This document shows positions 8,069 to 28,109 of a stretch of 64,000 bases of DNA, in pieces. The notes below the pieces were generated by a model, which ran no database searches, had not been told where the DNA came from, and saw nothing but the letters and a program-made list of their open reading frames with translations. Position 1 is the stretch's first letter, and each line of letters begins with the position of its first letter. Source of the stretch: Candidatus Zixiibacteriota bacterium (lineage in GTDB: Bacteria; Zixibacteria; MSB-5A5; GN15; FEB-12); contig CP070777.1 of assembly GCA_020346225.1 (NCBI GenBank), positions 2,243,385 to 2,307,384 of the forward strand, written 5' to 3'. The position numbers were made by a program, and so were the translations under genes.

Positions 8069-8705
8069 CGGTTTCTCCTTTCTTTTTTCCTATCGCCAAT
8101 CTTGTTAGGTCTCTTAAGGGCAGCCTGAAAACCAGGAGTATCGTTCGCCACGCGAGGGAATAGAGGGGAACGGCAAAGGAAGCTCGCAGCGTACCGTCGA
8201 ATGACGGCCCCTCCCAGACGGGCCTGAAGCGGAGTCGACCGGCCACGGGACCGGCCGCGGCCAGGGCCGCCCGGTAGTAACCGTAGGCCATGCCCGTGAT
8301 ATGCGGTGAGGCAAAACCTCCTTCAATCTCTCCATCGAGATATTCGACGACGACCGCCCTGAGCATGGACGTCAAATATGCTCCCACCGCCTTAACGACA
8401 CCGGGTATTACGCGAAGAAAATATCCAACGGGTCTTTGCCGCCGGCGCGGCTTCCTGGCTTTCTTCTTCGGCTTTTTCCCGGGTTCTCTTTCGGCTCCGG
8501 GTTTGCGGCCTAATTTCCGGGTTCCGAACTTAAGCCCGAAGACTTTGACGGCGCTGGTTCCGGCCGAAAAGTCAAATTCCGAGCCGCTTCTGCCAAGGCC
8601 GACAAAGAGCAGCTTTTGCCGGTCCGAAAGCAGCAGCCGCAGTCTCAGGCGAAGCAGGAGGACGGCAACAATCACGGCCGCTATGACAATAATCACGTAA
8701 AGCAT
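8058..8705 (-). CDS. DUF2953 domain membrane protein (YtfI-like)
   Basis: 215 residues. One N-terminal membrane span (VIIVIAAVIVAVLLL) is followed by a basic region rich in Lys, Arg and Pro (about residues 70-95), then a conserved C-terminal part with SFAVPLYSLAWRTILLVF, probably amphipathic or membrane-associated. It matches the DUF2953 family in length and architecture; molecular function is unknown. It overlaps gerW, which it precedes, and ends in TAA inside that gene. A good sigma-70-like promoter lies 40 bases upstream. No Shine-Dalgarno is evident. Confidence 0.8.
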   Translation of the reverse strand: MLYVIIVIAAVIVAVLLLRLRLRLLLSDRQKLLFVGLGRSGSEFDFSAGTSAVKVFGLKFGTRKLGRKPGAEREPGKKPKKKARKPRRRQRPVGYFLRVIPGVVKAVGAYLTSMLRAVVVEYLDGEIEGGFASPHITGMAYGYYRAALAAAGPVAGRLRFRPVWEGPSFDGTLRASFAVPLYSLAWRTILLVFRLPLRDLTRLAIGKKKGETDDQ

Positions 8706-8745
8706 TTGATGAACCCGGTCAGGTCAGAATGACCCTGCTTGTTAA

Positions 8746-8774
8746 ATTATACGCCTAAAAAGCGGTTCGGGCAA
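8746..8774 (-). promoter_or_regulatory. sigma-70-like promoter of the DUF2953-gerW unit
   Basis: Minus strand TTGCCC (8769-8774), 17-base spacer, perfect TATAAT (8746-8751), giving a leader of about 35 bases before the ATG at 8705. Confidence 0.55.
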
Positions 8775-8827
8775 CCGGGATGGCTGAATATTCGCACGGA
8801 GTCGGCCCTGCTCGACTTGGCTCCGGT

Positions 8828-10531
8828 CTAGAGGTCCATTATTTCCCACATGAGCGCGGGGGCGATAGCCCCTTCGGCGAGCAGAATATCATGAAAACTC
8901 CTGAGATCAAACGCCTGGCCCTCGCGCTCGGAGGCGGCCTCAAGCAGCTGGATGATCTCGAGCTTACCGATCAGGTACGACATCTGATAGGTGGGTGTGG
9001 TGGTGTAACGCCTGACTTCGACCCTGATGAATTCCAGGTCCGAATTCGTGACGAAATCAAGGGCCTCGGTCATCCATCGGACGCACTCGTCGTAGGTGAA
9101 CCGGCCGGTGTGCAGCTTGACGTCGGCGACTATTCGGGCGGCCCGAAATCTGATCCCGTCGAGAACATCCAGCCATTTGGCGGCGTCTTCATGGCCGTAC
9201 AGTCCCTGCTCGTACATCATCTCCTCGCAGTACAGGCCCCAGCCTTCGATTATCATCGGGTTCAACTGCCACTTGCGGACCGGGTCGCGGTGGGCGGCCG
9301 CCAGTTGCATCTGGAGGTGGTGGCCGGGATAGGCCTCGTGCACCACGGCTCCCTTGAAACCGCGCCGGTGAACGTACCGGTAGCGCGCCTCCAGCTGAGG
9401 CCGGTCGAGGTCGTCGGGGATCGGGCGGACATAGAAGTACCCCGGCTGGGCGGCATTGAAGGGTCCGGGCGGCTCGTAGGCTATGCCGGAAACCATCGTT
9501 CTCAGAAACGGCGGAGTTTCGATGACCAAAAGCGGCGCGATGTCCTCCGGGACAGTCACGATATCGTTTTCCTCGACGAAAATCTTCAGCTGCTCGACCT
9601 CCCAGTTGTAGTAATCGAGGATATCCTGTTTGGTGAAGTTGGCCGGAACGAATACGGAGTCGGTTCCGTTCTGGTTGTCCTCGACGTACTGGAGGTACTC
9701 CCGGTAGGTGCTGTCGGCCGACGCGAACAGCGCCTCACCCAGCTTCAAAAGCGAGTCACTGTCATATTCCAGGAAATATTCGTGTTTGAGTCTGTAATCG
9801 AAATTGTCCTTGCCGATGGCAAAGTCCTTCTCGTTTCCGGGCTCGATGTTTCCGAGGAAGGCCGCGAAATCGTTCATGGCCTCGCGGGCCCGGGTGGAGA
9901 CTCGCGACAGCTCGTCGGCCCGGCCGGGGAACTTGTTCGACAGTTCCGCGGCGACATCTTTGTACAACAGTATGCCGGATTCGAGAGTCTGCGCGGCGGC
10001 CTCGATGTATACCGGCGGGGGTTTTCTTAGATTTTTTCTGGCTGTTGCAATATAGGCCGGTACCGACTCCATCCGGTTGATAATGGAAACCAGGCGCTGC
10101 TCCAGAGGGGCATCGTTGAACATCATCAGAAAATAGATGCCGTCGACGAGTTCCCGGGCGTAAAGCTCCGGCGATTTCCGGTGCCATTTTATCCGCTTAA
10201 GGTCGAGTATGGCCATATCGACATTGGATTTCAAGAGCCTGTAATTGATGCGGTCGTACAGGGGGAGATCGGCGGCTTTATACTTGTATAGTTTCTTCTC
10301 GTAGCCGCTAAGCTTATCGAGAACCTGGTCGACCGACTTCTTTGAATAATCCGTGAAGCGGTGGTCGTAAGCGTGGATTCCCATCCTGGTGGAGAGAACC
10401 GGGTAGAAGGACTGGAGAGTCTCCAGTATCTCGTTGGCGACTTCCGCCAGAGATTGCGTCCTGGCCGAGGCCGGGCTGAGGGGGGACATTGTCAGAACAG
10501 TCAAAAGACCGAAGCAGATTAGCAACCGCAC
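8828..10531 (-). CDS. DUF885 family protein, predicted exported metallopeptidase-like
   Basis: 567 residues, typical for DUF885. The N-terminus has a signal peptide (LLICFGLLTVLTMSPLSPASA). The zinc signature is HEAYPGHH (HExxxGHH form), and about 35 residues on EGWGLYCEEMMYE supplies the expected third-ligand Glu. Family members are thought to be peptidases with a thermolysin-like site, exported or lipid-anchored; substrates are mostly unknown. The start is GTG, fixed by AAGGAGG seven bases upstream. It follows rlmD by 66 bases and may be the last gene of that run, or separate. Confidence 0.9.
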   Translation of the reverse strand: MRLLICFGLLTVLTMSPLSPASARTQSLAEVANEILETLQSFYPVLSTRMGIHAYDHRFTDYSKKSVDQVLDKLSGYEKKLYKYKAADLPLYDRINYRLLKSNVDMAILDLKRIKWHRKSPELYARELVDGIYFLMMFNDAPLEQRLVSIINRMESVPAYIATARKNLRKPPPVYIEAAAQTLESGILLYKDVAAELSNKFPGRADELSRVSTRAREAMNDFAAFLGNIEPGNEKDFAIGKDNFDYRLKHEYFLEYDSDSLLKLGEALFASADSTYREYLQYVEDNQNGTDSVFVPANFTKQDILDYYNWEVEQLKIFVEENDIVTVPEDIAPLLVIETPPFLRTMVSGIAYEPPGPFNAAQPGYFYVRPIPDDLDRPQLEARYRYVHRRGFKGAVVHEAYPGHHLQMQLAAAHRDPVRKWQLNPMIIEGWGLYCEEMMYEQGLYGHEDAAKWLDVLDGIRFRAARIVADVKLHTGRFTYDECVRWMTEALDFVTNSDLEFIRVEVRRYTTTPTYQMSYLIGKLEIIQLLEAASEREGQAFDLRSFHDILLAEGAIAPALMWEIMDL

Positions 10532-22560: not shown

Positions 22561-25209
22561 CTACTTGAGCAGGGTCATTTTTCTCTGCTCAACGTAGTCG
22601 CCCGATTTCATGCGGTACAGGTAAATGCCGGAGGCAAGCCTCGAAGCATCCCACCGCACCGTGTGAATCCCGGCGCTGCGGAAACCATCGACGAGGGTGG
22701 TCACTTTCTGACCCCGGATATTGTATATTTCGAGCGAAACATGACCCGGCGCGGGGAGAGAGAAGGATATGTCGGTGGTCGGGTTGAACGGGTTGGGATA
22801 GTTCTGGCTCAATCCGTACTCGGTCGGCGCCAGGACGTCCCCGCCGGCGATCGGGTCGCTCTTGAAGACAATACCACTTTCACAGACTTTGGTCATATCA
22901 TTGTCATTCTGGTCGTAGGTGTAACCCGCGAGAATGACATCGGTGACCTCGAAGCACCACTCGCCGGTGCAGCTTTTGGTGTAGCTCGTCTGGAAGGCGA
23001 CATAACCCGTGTCGTCTGTCAGAGCGTTGCCGGTTCCGCCGACCGGGCCGGTCGCCGTGACGTAGACATCGGCACCCGCCACGGGCTGATGGTCCTGATC
23101 TTTAATCCAGATGCCAACACGTCCGTTGCAGTTGCGTCCCACGGTGCCCCGATAGGCGTATATCGAATCCACGTGCAGGGAGTTGTCCGGGGCCTCGTAG
23201 GTGCTGATGTAATCATCCTTGGTGAGGGTGTCGGCGCCGAAAGCATTACTGACTATCAGGGTGACGGTGAAGGTATCCACGTAAGTGTAGGTGTGAACGG
23301 GATCCTGGTCGTGGGATACGGGGCTGCCGTCGCCGAAGTCCCATGTCCACGAAGTCGGGCCGTTGGTCGACTGATCGTCGAAGGTGACCTGGAGCTCTAT
23401 CGGGCCGGTAAGCGGGTCGGCCGAGAAGGCCGCTACCGGCGGGTCAGTGGGTTCGGTTACACTGATATAGGCGACCTTCTGTTCGACGTCGTAGCCGCAG
23501 TCGTTGGTGGCGGTCAGTGTAACGGTAAAGTTGTCGGCGTAGGTGTACTGATGGGACGGGTGCTGGGTGTACACGTGCTCGCTGCCGTCGCCAAAATCCC
23601 ACTCCCATGAGGTTGGATTGTTGGTCGAGAGATCGGTAAAGTCGACGGTCAGCGGATAGTCGCCACTGGTCGGGTCGCCGCTGAAATCGGCCACGGGCGG
23701 GTCGGTGCACGGCTCTTCTATGGCATCAAGACACTTCTTGGCACTGACGATTCCGACACCCACGTACTTGGTCATGTTGTAGGGTTTGACATTATCGGGG
23801 TCGCAAATGATGTCCCATTTGTCCTGTCTCGACAGCGAGGGGTCGGTCGATTCCAGCAGAGCCGCCACGCCGACCACGTGAGGTGCCGACATGGAGGTGC
23901 CCGACATTGTCCGCGTCTGATCGCCGTCGCCGTTCCAGCTGCTGAGTATGGTGGTACCGGGAGCGGCTACCTCCACCCAAGAGCCGTAGTTAGAGAAAGT
24001 TGACGGATTTCCGCTGATGTCGGTAGCTCCGACGCTCAAGCACTCCGGCAGGGAGGGGAGGTAAGCGGGGGTGGGCGAATTGCTGTTACCCGCGGATACC
24101 ACTATCAGGACATCTTCACTCACCAGGTAAGCCACGGCGGCAGCCAGGTCGGCCGTTTCCGACGAGCCCCATGAGCAGTTGATGGCGGCGACATTAACAC
24201 CGCGTGCCTTGAGGTCGCCGACATAAACCATGGCCTCGGCGGCATACTCCATCGAAACGCTGCCGCTGGAGCCCCTGGCCCAGCCGATCCGGCACGGCAG
24301 AATTTTCACGCCGTTGGCGGTGCTGCTCTGGGTACCGTCGTTATAGCCACCGGCCACACCGCAAACTCGGTAGCCGTTGTTGTTGATAGCTGCGGCCGTG
24401 CCCGAGACATGGGTGCCGTGACCGACTGCGTCGCTCGGGTCGTTGTCGGCCACCGTGCAGTCCTCTTCGTTGCAGCGCATAGCGGCTTCCACGAAGTCCC
24501 AGCCGATGACGTCATCATCGTAGCCGTTGGCGTCGTCGTCATAGCCGTTCCCCGGAATCTCCTGGTCGTTGACCCAAATATTGCCGTTGGTAACGTTGTC
24601 GCTGGGGCCCGGGGGATCGCTTCCGCCCAGGTCGCCGTGATCGTATTTGACGCCGGAATCGAGGATGCCGACCACGACGGTGGCATCACCGGTCTGCATA
24701 TCCCAGGCCAGGTCGGCGTCGACGCCATAGGTGTCCCAGTAATTCCATTGAGTCGAAAAGGAGGGATCGTTGGGGGTGGCGTCCATACTGTGAACGGGGA
24801 TCTTGTAAGCCCGGGTAACCATGGGCAGCCGCTCGTAGGCCGCAATGACCTCGTCAAGATCGGCGTCGTCGACGTGCACCCGGAAAAACCTGGTCAGGGC
24901 CTGCCTCTGCGGGGAGTTGGCCGCGTCGTAAAGCACCCCCGGGAACTTCTTGTCGATGCGGGTGATGCCGAATCGCCGGGCCACGGCGTCGAATTCGACC
25001 ACGCCGGCAAGGGCGTTGGCCGATTTAAAGGCATTCTGGTTAAGGGTTGGTATGAAACTTTCGTCAAGCTGGACAACGATCATGTTGGGCATATATCCCT
25101 CGAAAGAGGGGTCGTCCTCGATGCGGTAAAGCTGGTGGACGTTCTCGGCGGTAGTGAGGCTACCAGATGCTAGTAATACCGCCAGGAGAATTAGAGCGAG
25201 TTTTCTCAT
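22561..25209 (-). CDS. secreted S8 (subtilisin-like) serine protease with two PKD domains and C-terminal sorting domain
   Basis: 882 residues. Signal peptide (1-20), propeptide-like region (about 40-140), S8 catalytic domain (about 150-490) with Asp184 (GILDSGV), His264 (GHGTHVSGT), oxyanion Asn375 (SAGNSNS) and Ser439 (GTSMSAP). PKD domains lie at about 503-586 and 590-670, each with the WDFGDGS motif. An Ig-like insert (675-785) and a C-terminal domain opening with NYPNPFNPTTDISFSLP and closing with RKMTLLK follow. The last is the FlgD-like/Por sorting type, which in FCB bacteria directs proteins through type IX or related secretion to the surface. All catalytic residues are intact. CAGGAGG precedes the ATG. 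Divergent from the FG-GAP gene, also tailed with NYPNPFNP. Confidence 0.95.
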   Translation of the reverse strand: MRKLALILLAVLLASGSLTTAENVHQLYRIEDDPSFEGYMPNMIVVQLDESFIPTLNQNAFKSANALAGVVEFDAVARRFGITRIDKKFPGVLYDAANSPQRQALTRFFRVHVDDADLDEVIAAYERLPMVTRAYKIPVHSMDATPNDPSFSTQWNYWDTYGVDADLAWDMQTGDATVVVGILDSGVKYDHGDLGGSDPPGPSDNVTNGNIWVNDQEIPGNGYDDDANGYDDDVIGWDFVEAAMRCNEEDCTVADNDPSDAVGHGTHVSGTAAAINNNGYRVCGVAGGYNDGTQSSTANGVKILPCRIGWARGSSGSVSMEYAAEAMVYVGDLKARGVNVAAINCSWGSSETADLAAAVAYLVSEDVLIVVSAGNSNSPTPAYLPSLPECLSVGATDISGNPSTFSNYGSWVEVAAPGTTILSSWNGDGDQTRTMSGTSMSAPHVVGVAALLESTDPSLSRQDKWDIICDPDNVKPYNMTKYVGVGIVSAKKCLDAIEEPCTDPPVADFSGDPTSGDYPLTVDFTDLSTNNPTSWEWDFGDGSEHVYTQHPSHQYTYADNFTVTLTATNDCGYDVEQKVAYISVTEPTDPPVAAFSADPLTGPIELQVTFDDQSTNGPTSWTWDFGDGSPVSHDQDPVHTYTYVDTFTVTLIVSNAFGADTLTKDDYISTYEAPDNSLHVDSIYAYRGTVGRNCNGRVGIWIKDQDHQPVAGADVYVTATGPVGGTGNALTDDTGYVAFQTSYTKSCTGEWCFEVTDVILAGYTYDQNDNDMTKVCESGIVFKSDPIAGGDVLAPTEYGLSQNYPNPFNPTTDISFSLPAPGHVSLEIYNIRGQKVTTLVDGFRSAGIHTVRWDASRLASGIYLYRMKSGDYVEQRKMTLLK

Positions 25210-25613
25210 TTTTCCTCCTGAGCATACTGTTGAATGTTCTGCGGTTTAGTGAAGTACACTGATGCAATACGCTGCTTTGGAAACTTGCCGTATCACCTCC
25301 CTTGAGAAGTACTCATGTGACGAGTAAATATTTGGTTATCTGCTACTGTGGCTCTTTTGGGTATGCTTACCAGGAACCAATGCAACTATGGCCGTAAGTT
25401 AATGAAAATACGAAGGAAAGCAAATGAAATCTGGCCCGACAATGCGATTTGCCGCCAACCGGCAGAAAAGAGGATGTTTACGGTTGACAATGGCCGGCCG
25501 CATCAGCAGATTAAGGCCGTAACGATCAAAATGGTTGGGGCTTCAACTTTTGAGTCTACTTCACCAGGATGACGAACTCTTTTATCCATTGTTCATAGGT
25601 GATAGGAGGAGCT
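25210..25613. other. divergent intergenic region between S8 protease and FG-GAP genes
   Basis: 404 bases, more AT-rich than its flanks. A perfect TTGACA (25484-25489) with 17 bases to a poor CAGATT (25507-25512) could serve the FG-GAP gene. GGAGGAGCT sets its ATG at 25614. No other feature was recognised. Confidence 0.3.
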
Positions 25614-26540
25614 ATGAGAGCAACGGTAGCGGCCGTGGCGGTCTGCGTCCTTTTGGCATCTTCCGCTGTGGCGGCCATCAATGGGCCGCTGTTTGAAAGC
25701 AGTATCCAGAATAAGGTCGCGCCTGAACCGTACCGGGTCAGCGTCGCCGATTTCAACAATGACGGGATTAATGACATGGCCTGCGCCCATTATACCGGTG
25801 ACAGTATTGCCGTTATGATCGGTAATGGAGACGGTGACTTCCAGCCGGCGGTGTTCTACACGATAGGTTCCTGGCAAACCGACATCCAGGCAGCCAACAT
25901 CGACGGCGATGCGGCTATTGAACTCGTCGTGGCCACGTCAAGCAATGTCTACACGCTCGACAACAATGGTGATGGTACCTTTGCCGCGGCGGTCCAGATA
26001 TCGGGCCTGGCCAATAATCCCCGGACAATAAGACTGGCGCTTGTCGACGGTGACGCTAATCTGGACCTGATTGTGGCCCATTACGACAATGTGTATACCG
26101 ATCTGTCGGTCTGGGACAACGACGGCTCCGGCAACTTCACGTTTGACAACCAGTACACCGTGGGTACTTACCAGACGGCAATGGCAGTGGGCGATTTTGA
26201 CGGTATCAACGGTCCTGATGTCGTCGTGGGCACGACGACGCCCGACTACAGCGTTCTGCTCAATGACGGTTCGGGCGGCTATAGCGTTCACGCGACTTAC
26301 CCCCTGGCCTCCACCCCCCGCGGCATGTGTGCCGCTAACTTTGACGGCGGCGCGGATATCGAGATAGCCATTTCCCGTTATCAGAGTCTGACGGTGTATT
26401 CAAACGACGGCAACGGTAATTTCAGCGTATTCAGTTCGCTGGGCACGCTGGACGACGGCTACTGCCTTAGCGCCGCCGATTTTGACGGTTCCAACGGCCC
26501 CGACGTAGCCCTGACCGACGACACGACCTATGTTTACTAA
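25614..26540 (+). CDS. secreted FG-GAP/VCBS repeat protein, N-terminal part ended by an in-frame TAA
   Basis: Start ATG at 25614 is fixed by GGAGGAGCT directly upstream; the frame opens earlier but without family sense. A signal peptide (MRATVAAVAVCVLLASSAVAA) is followed by about six FG-GAP/VCBS repeats of the DFNNDGINDMAC type. These are calcium-binding beta-propeller blades that bind extracellular ligands or surfaces. The frame meets TAA at 26538-26540 inside a repeat (VY-stop-NNGSG). At the same position other repeats read VLLNDGSG, VYSNDGNG or VYWNDGSG. The same frame then continues the repeat pattern, so the original gene ran to 28109. Read as one unit it is 830 residues. Pseudogene, sequencing error or recoding remain possible. 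Confidence 0.8.
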   Translation: MRATVAAVAVCVLLASSAVAAINGPLFESSIQNKVAPEPYRVSVADFNNDGINDMACAHYTGDSIAVMIGNGDGDFQPAVFYTIGSWQTDIQAANIDGDAAIELVVATSSNVYTLDNNGDGTFAAAVQISGLANNPRTIRLALVDGDANLDLIVAHYDNVYTDLSVWDNDGSGNFTFDNQYTVGTYQTAMAVGDFDGINGPDVVVGTTTPDYSVLLNDGSGGYSVHATYPLASTPRGMCAANFDGGADIEIAISRYQSLTVYSNDGNGNFSVFSSLGTLDDGYCLSAADFDGSNGPDVALTDDTTYVY

Positions 26541-26558
26541 AACAACGGAAGCGGGGCT

Positions 26559-28109
26559 TTGACCTCCACGAGCAGGTACTGGGTCGGCGAGTACAGCGAG
26601 GGACTGGCTATCGGCGACCTTGACAATGACGGTAACCCCGATCTGGCGGTTGTGGGTCGGACCGGCAGCTCCCACGACGGGGGAGACTACGTGGCTGTTC
26701 TGCTGAACCCGAACGGCACCGGGCAGTTCATGTATCCCCACCAGAGCCTTACGGGGGGAACCGGCCGGAACGACCCGGTATCGCTGAGCCGGGCTTTTTT
26801 CGATGGCGACGCCTATCCTGATGTGGCGACGCTCGACTGGGTGAACGACAGCGTTCTTGTCTATTTAGGTGACGGTGCCGGACACTTTACCAGCTGCTTC
26901 CGCTGGCCGGTGGCCAACGCCCCCTGTGAGATCGTGGCCGCGGATGTCGATGGGCAGCCTGGCGCGGACCTGATAATCGGTCACGGCGATGCTTCCGCGG
27001 CCAACATCAGCGTTTTGCTCAGTGTTGGCGGAGGGAACTTCAATCTTCCCGCTACATATCCCGCCGGCTTGAAACCTATGGGCATTTTCGTGGGAGAGCT
27101 TAATAATGCCGGACTGCCTGACATTGCCACCGCGAACTACACCGCCGGGAACATAGCGGTCCTTATCAATCAGGGTCTCGGTGTCTTTAACGGGGTGGTT
27201 TCTTATTACGCGGCCGGCAGCCTGCCCAACCATAGTGCTATCGACGGCGGCGACTTTAACAACGACCTGAGTATAGACCTGGTAACGCCCAACCCGGGCA
27301 GTAACTGTGTCCGGGTCTACTGGAACGACGGTTCCGGGGGCTTCGGTGGCTCTGTCGACGTTGCCTCCGGTCTGCTCTATGATCCTTATCAGGTGTGCGT
27401 GGACGACCTGGACGGAAACGGCTACGCCGATATTATCGTCGGCAGCTACGATACCACGGAGGTAGCGGTCATTTTGAGCAGTGGCTCCGGATTCGCTGCT
27501 CCCAGTTTTTACCACGCCGGTGAGGAACAGTATGAGGTTCGCACCTCGGACTTCGATAGCGACGGGAACATCGATATCGTTGTGCTGAATACGGAGTCTT
27601 ACAGCTTCACGGTCCTGTTTGGTGACGGCGCCGGGAATTTCAGCGTCGGCGGCCACTATGGGATTGTCAGCGATGATTCCGAGGGTCTGGCGGTGGCCGA
27701 TTTTGACAACGACGGTTACCCCGATGTGGCCGTATCCAATTACAATCACGACAATATTTCGGTTATGCTCAACCGGTATATCATCCTGACCGACGTGGAC
27801 GGTCCGGGGTCAGCCAACCAGGTGCTGCCGAAGCGGTTTGTATTACAGCAAAACTATCCCAACCCTTTCAACCCGAGGACCACCATAAGGTATAGCCTGC
27901 CGGCCCGGGCGGATGTGCGGATAACAGTTTATAACCTTCTCGGTCAGCGGGTGAAGGAGTTTGACGAGGGCGCCAAACCGGCCGGGGAGCACTCGGTGAT
28001 CTGGGACGGCCGGACGGACGGTGGCAGTCTCGTTGCCACGGGCGTCTATTTTTACAGGCTTTATGCGGGCGATTTCACCGAATCGCGCAAGATGCTGCTG
28101 GTGAAGTGA
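26559..28109 (+). CDS. FG-GAP/VCBS repeat protein, C-terminal part with sorting domain (in frame after TAA)
   Basis: Continues the frame of the preceding part six codons after the TAA, from a TTG with no ribosome site, so it is very unlikely to be an independent gene. About nine more FG-GAP repeats (GDLDNDGNPDLAV, DFDSDGNIDIVV, DFDNDGYPDVAV) lead to a C-terminal domain starting LQQNYPNPFNPRTTIRYSLP and ending ESRKMLLVK. This is the same sorting-tail type as the S8 protease. Without readthrough or repair, the secreted N-terminal product would lack this tail and could not be anchored or exported by that route. The reading frame is otherwise intact, which argues for a recent mutation. Confidence 0.7.
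   Translation: MTSTSRYWVGEYSEGLAIGDLDNDGNPDLAVVGRTGSSHDGGDYVAVLLNPNGTGQFMYPHQSLTGGTGRNDPVSLSRAFFDGDAYPDVATLDWVNDSVLVYLGDGAGHFTSCFRWPVANAPCEIVAADVDGQPGADLIIGHGDASAANISVLLSVGGGNFNLPATYPAGLKPMGIFVGELNNAGLPDIATANYTAGNIAVLINQGLGVFNGVVSYYAAGSLPNHSAIDGGDFNNDLSIDLVTPNPGSNCVRVYWNDGSGGFGGSVDVASGLLYDPYQVCVDDLDGNGYADIIVGSYDTTEVAVILSSGSGFAAPSFYHAGEEQYEVRTSDFDSDGNIDIVVLNTESYSFTVLFGDGAGNFSVGGHYGIVSDDSEGLAVADFDNDGYPDVAVSNYNHDNISVMLNRYIILTDVDGPGSANQVLPKRFVLQQNYPNPFNPRTTIRYSLPARADVRITVYNLLGQRVKEFDEGAKPAGEHSVIWDGRTDGGSLVATGVYFYRLYAGDFTESRKMLLVK

Follow-up and report, generated by a model that had tools for sequence, protein, structure and literature searches.

A gene for a predicted type IX-secreted FG-GAP protein in a Candidatus Zixiibacteriota genome is interrupted by an in-frame TAA stop codon, and we consider this stop to be probably a nonsense mutation of recent origin in a dispensable, single-copy gene whose decay would have just begun. 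The gene lies in a 64,000-nt stretch of contig CP070777.1 (hereafter the window), which belongs to a genome (G000) assembled as one contig of 3,184,860 bases and rated 95.6% complete. Comparison with three congeneric genomes (G001, G002, and G003) carries most of the argument.

The TAA at 26538-26540 on the forward strand is in frame with an ATG at 25614, which is preceded by a Shine-Dalgarno-like AGGAGG (25604-25609, forward strand, read in the sequence) 4 bases upstream. Reading past the TAA, the frame continues to its own final stop at 28107-28109, giving a whole frame of 25614-28109 that confirms the gene interruption proposed in a first-pass annotation. Besides this TAA, neither a stop nor a frame change was found in the 831 codons of the window's frame. 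The part before the stop (25614-26537, forward strand) comprises 308 codons, with a signal-peptide-like start of about 21 residues, judged by eye, followed by FG-GAP repeats; the part after it (26541-28109, forward strand) keeps this frame for 522 codons, carries further FG-GAP repeats and a sorting tail, and ends at the final stop. Base composition by codon position was similar on the two sides, and the changed codon sits in a run of just four A, with no shift of frame. The first start-like codon downstream is a TTG at 26559-26561 (forward strand), six codons past the TAA, and the list of open reading frames accordingly has an entry at 26559-28109; by eye no clear ribosome site was seen at this TTG, and the part after the stop has no signal peptide.

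Both parts belong to the same repeat family, as had been proposed from the translations: PF13517 (FG-GAP_3, cut-off 26.9) matched the part before the TAA in four stretches with 83 bits (E 2.2e-23), and the part after it with 107 bits (E 7.5e-31). The stop lies inside a single repeat (26478-26651, forward strand; G000:C1:2269862-2270035), which scored 38.1 bits against the same cut-off with one TAA inside, and the match spans the whole repeat length when read through the stop. The genome scan counted 136 FG-GAP_3 matches, among which the TAA-bearing repeat was the only one listed with an internal stop. A simple motif search placed I, D, D, L, S, L, L, L, I, W, L, and F at the position of the TAA in 12 other repeats, the S being a manual reading of a row that the motif pattern split one residue off. 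The residues first reported for this position, L, S, or W, do occur there, but so do I, D, and F. The FG-GAP protein is integrin-alpha-like and presumably a beta-propeller. FG-GAP repeats were also observed in two short open frames elsewhere in the genome (G000:C1:1870905-1871381 and G000:C1:2929562-2930032; 294 and 302 codons), which are possibly other truncated family members.

The type IX secretion sorting tail (TIGR04183) occupies 27855-28097 on the forward strand (G000:C1:2271239-2271481), with 41 bits in the genome scan, over the cut-off, and 37.8 bits against a cut-off of 23 in a separate search. It is found only downstream of the stop, as the first-pass annotation had stated. The corresponding Pfam model PF18962 (Por_Secre_tail) reached 23.9, under its cut-off of 27, and the C-terminal domain also passed the Pfam FlgD_ig cut-off. 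The genome contains 47 sorting-tail matches, with an internal stop in none of those listed, and a type IX sortase, PorU (NF033707, 628.5 bits, cut-off 420), so the type IX system itself seems to be present. On the combination of repeats, TIGR04183 tail, and genomic sortase, the gene before its break is predicted to have encoded a type IX-secreted FG-GAP protein.

An orthologue occupies the same locus in G001 and G002 (64 and 60% identity, respectively, across the C-terminal part), between matching flanking genes that are, by names read from their translations, protease-like on one side and lipoprotein-like on the other. Each orthologue is one open frame (861 codons between stops in G001 and 853 in G002; counted from the first ATG, 848 and 846), and the column of the TAA holds Phe in one and Tyr in the other. 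One base change, such as TTA to TAA, had been suggested as the origin of the stop, but the residues of the orthologues are aromatic and point to an ancestral codon other than TTA. The 80 loci kept from named records included only distant relatives and no same-species genome, although sequences very close to the window may have been left out of this set.

Several differences in the neighborhood were also observed. The protease-like neighbor (window 22561-25209) is shorter in G001 (L176 11877-14288), at 803 versus 882 residues, and the two blast matches overlap in G001, which suggests that the G001 gene has one internal repeat domain fewer. G001 further carries two extra genes of 578 and 185 residues (L176 6002-8314) between the orthologue and the lipoprotein-like gene, and the 185-residue gene is also present in this interval in G002 (L006 309-866); no counterpart of either was seen at that place in the window. 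The 185-residue gene may be LemA-like.

In the third congener, G003, the same flanking genes are present (73 and 74% identity), whereas the spacing between them is 1,282 bases versus 3,357 in the window. What is left of the gene is a 141-codon frame (8618-9043 of locus L202, G003:C1:3216001-3233000), in which a signal-peptide-like start runs in frame straight into the final FG-GAP repeat and then the sorting tail, the likeness ending about 40 residues short of the tail's end. Blast offsets place the deletion of the body at about 2.04 kb and indicate that about 80 more bases are lacking near the tail or beyond it. The gene thus appears to have been lost independently in G003, unless the assembly, rated 80% complete, is wrong there, and the remnant indicates that loss of the gene is tolerated. 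Of the four genomes, two have the whole gene, one has it stopped, and one has most of it deleted, and in this sense the gene is dispensable within the genus. The proposed check against sibling genomes thus gave a sense codon in G001 and G002 and, in G003, an apparently independent loss of most of the gene. This outcome favors the recent pseudogene among the options raised at the outset and leaves a base error as its main rival. In keeping with a nonsense pseudogene, the orthologues in G001 and G002 run across the site without a stop; G003 has only the remnant.

We then compared constraint on the two sides of the stop. The three long sequences (window, G001, and G002) were aligned by codon and compared by Nei-Gojobori counts, in which synonymous sites were near saturation. 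Upstream of the TAA, the dN/dS of the window's copy was 0.225 against G001 and 0.242 against G002; downstream it was 0.200 and 0.177, respectively. G001 against G002 gave 0.154 before and 0.203 after the same position. Residues changed in the window alone numbered 26 of 308 before the TAA and 42 of 514 after it; the corresponding counts of residues changed alone were 25 and 54 in G001 and 55 and 79 in G002. Relaxed constraint downstream of the TAA was thus not found in this alignment, the rate not being raised in the window's copy. Because constraint is equal on both sides and changes are not in excess in the window's copy, the stop is either very young or a consensus error; constraint would have lasted until very recently in the first case and would persist in the second. 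For a nonsense pseudogene, the absence of relaxed constraint is expected because the stop would be very recent.

The same data bear on the strongest alternative, namely a single-base consensus error in a gene that is intact in the organism, which we regard as unlikely but a serious contender. Undiminished constraint on both sides and a difference confined to one codon suit it, mutation and error having been weighed on one assembly of the window's genome. Against the mutation itself stand the lack of any visible second decay mutation and the rate that is not raised; both fit a very young mutation, but a base error would look alike. However, no other listed FG-GAP_3 or sorting-tail match contains an internal stop, indicating that errors of this kind are infrequent among such genes, and the independent loss in G003 shows that decay is possible. 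Reading the locus as two separate genes, the second restarting downstream of the stop, is scarcely credible: the nearby TTG and the listed frame 26559-28109 would fit it, but the second part has neither a clear ribosome site nor a signal peptide, the gene is single in G001 and G002, and a TAA that cuts one FG-GAP_3 repeat, taken with single-frame orthologues, argues against both two adjacent genes and chance. Mechanical scans for internal stops, covering the window and 18 sampled stretches, returned mostly noise: the first gave 65 candidates, many of them antisense shadows, and included this TAA, not at the top, and the second gave 201. With both filters combined, nine candidates remained in 417,616 bases, one being the TAA at 26538-26540 and the other eight, by eye, gene junctions or shadow frames.

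The two remaining options of the first-pass annotation, an ON/OFF state and recoding, found no support, as neither a tRNA for UAA among the 34 read, a reverse transcriptase match, a second copy, nor an unusual downstream RNA structure was detected. A segregating state, in which the gene is stopped in some cells and whole and displayed in others, is improbable, although its product is a surface or secreted protein, judged by the TIGR04183 tail, and the G003 copy is altered too. A second copy of the region was not found in the genome, where besides the gene itself there were two matches of only 42 and 37 bases (81 and 84%), and the change lies in a run of only four A and leaves the frame unshifted, so that no switch was found. 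No reverse transcriptase match (PF00078, RVT_1) was found in the genome, so there is no diversity-generating retroelement. A silent cassette or donor copy was also considered and was rejected on the same lack of a second copy of the region. Slightly more doubtful still is a living polymorphism, in which some cells of the population would keep the propeller, stopped before its sorting tail, in the periplasm and the rest would display the whole protein, the G003 copy being another state of a surface protein repeatedly lost and altered under diversifying pressure. That the TAA is recoded or read through by a programmed mechanism is very improbable. The frame past the TAA is conserved, but both whole orthologues lack the stop, and TAA is an ordinary final stop: of 215 long frames in 424 kb, 56 end with it, with the proviso that shadow frames may be among them and that 6 kb were counted twice. 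An anticodon for UAA was absent among the 34 tRNAs read by ARAGORN from 36 matches in the genome; the other two matches were weak (34.2 and 29.4 bits) and gave no gene call. tRNA-Ile and tRNA-His were also missing among these 34, and either a piece of the genome may be missing or the search may have missed them, so the set may be incomplete and an unseen UAA tRNA is possible. The 100 bases downstream of the TAA fold no better than shuffled sequences (z 0.50), and an excerpt of PMC8629427 names UAA reassignment for eukaryotic nuclear codes and UGA reassignment for bacteria.

If the stop is a recent nonsense mutation, translation would end after 308 residues and yield a fragment that is exported by Sec but lacks the type IX sorting tail, and that therefore could not be passed on by the type IX system. 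The 522-residue remainder would either not be made or be made without a signal peptide, and a restart product from the TTG at 26559 should not be exported. This arrangement also calls for caution in annotation, since one broken gene here gives rise to two protein predictions, of which the first seems to have no sorting tail and the second no signal peptide.

A literature search for Zixibacteria together with type IX secretion found nothing. With type IX-secreted FG-GAP proteins that bear a Por_Secre_tail (PF13517, TIGR04183), the window's gene shares the repeats and the type of tail, whereas among the listed FG-GAP_3 and tail matches of its own genome it alone has a stop inside the matched stretch. 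Excerpts of PMC9218822 describe bacterial propeller-type repeat genes that are broken by an in-frame stop or a change of frame, beyond which more repeats follow, and also warn of sequencing errors. This kind of event is already on record, and the window's gene is one more, ordinary case, here in a type IX-tailed FG-GAP protein. The beta-propellers treated there are highly repetitive and newly amplified, with blades 76-85% alike in the examples, whereas the window's gene has old, diverged repeats and is affected at a single codon.
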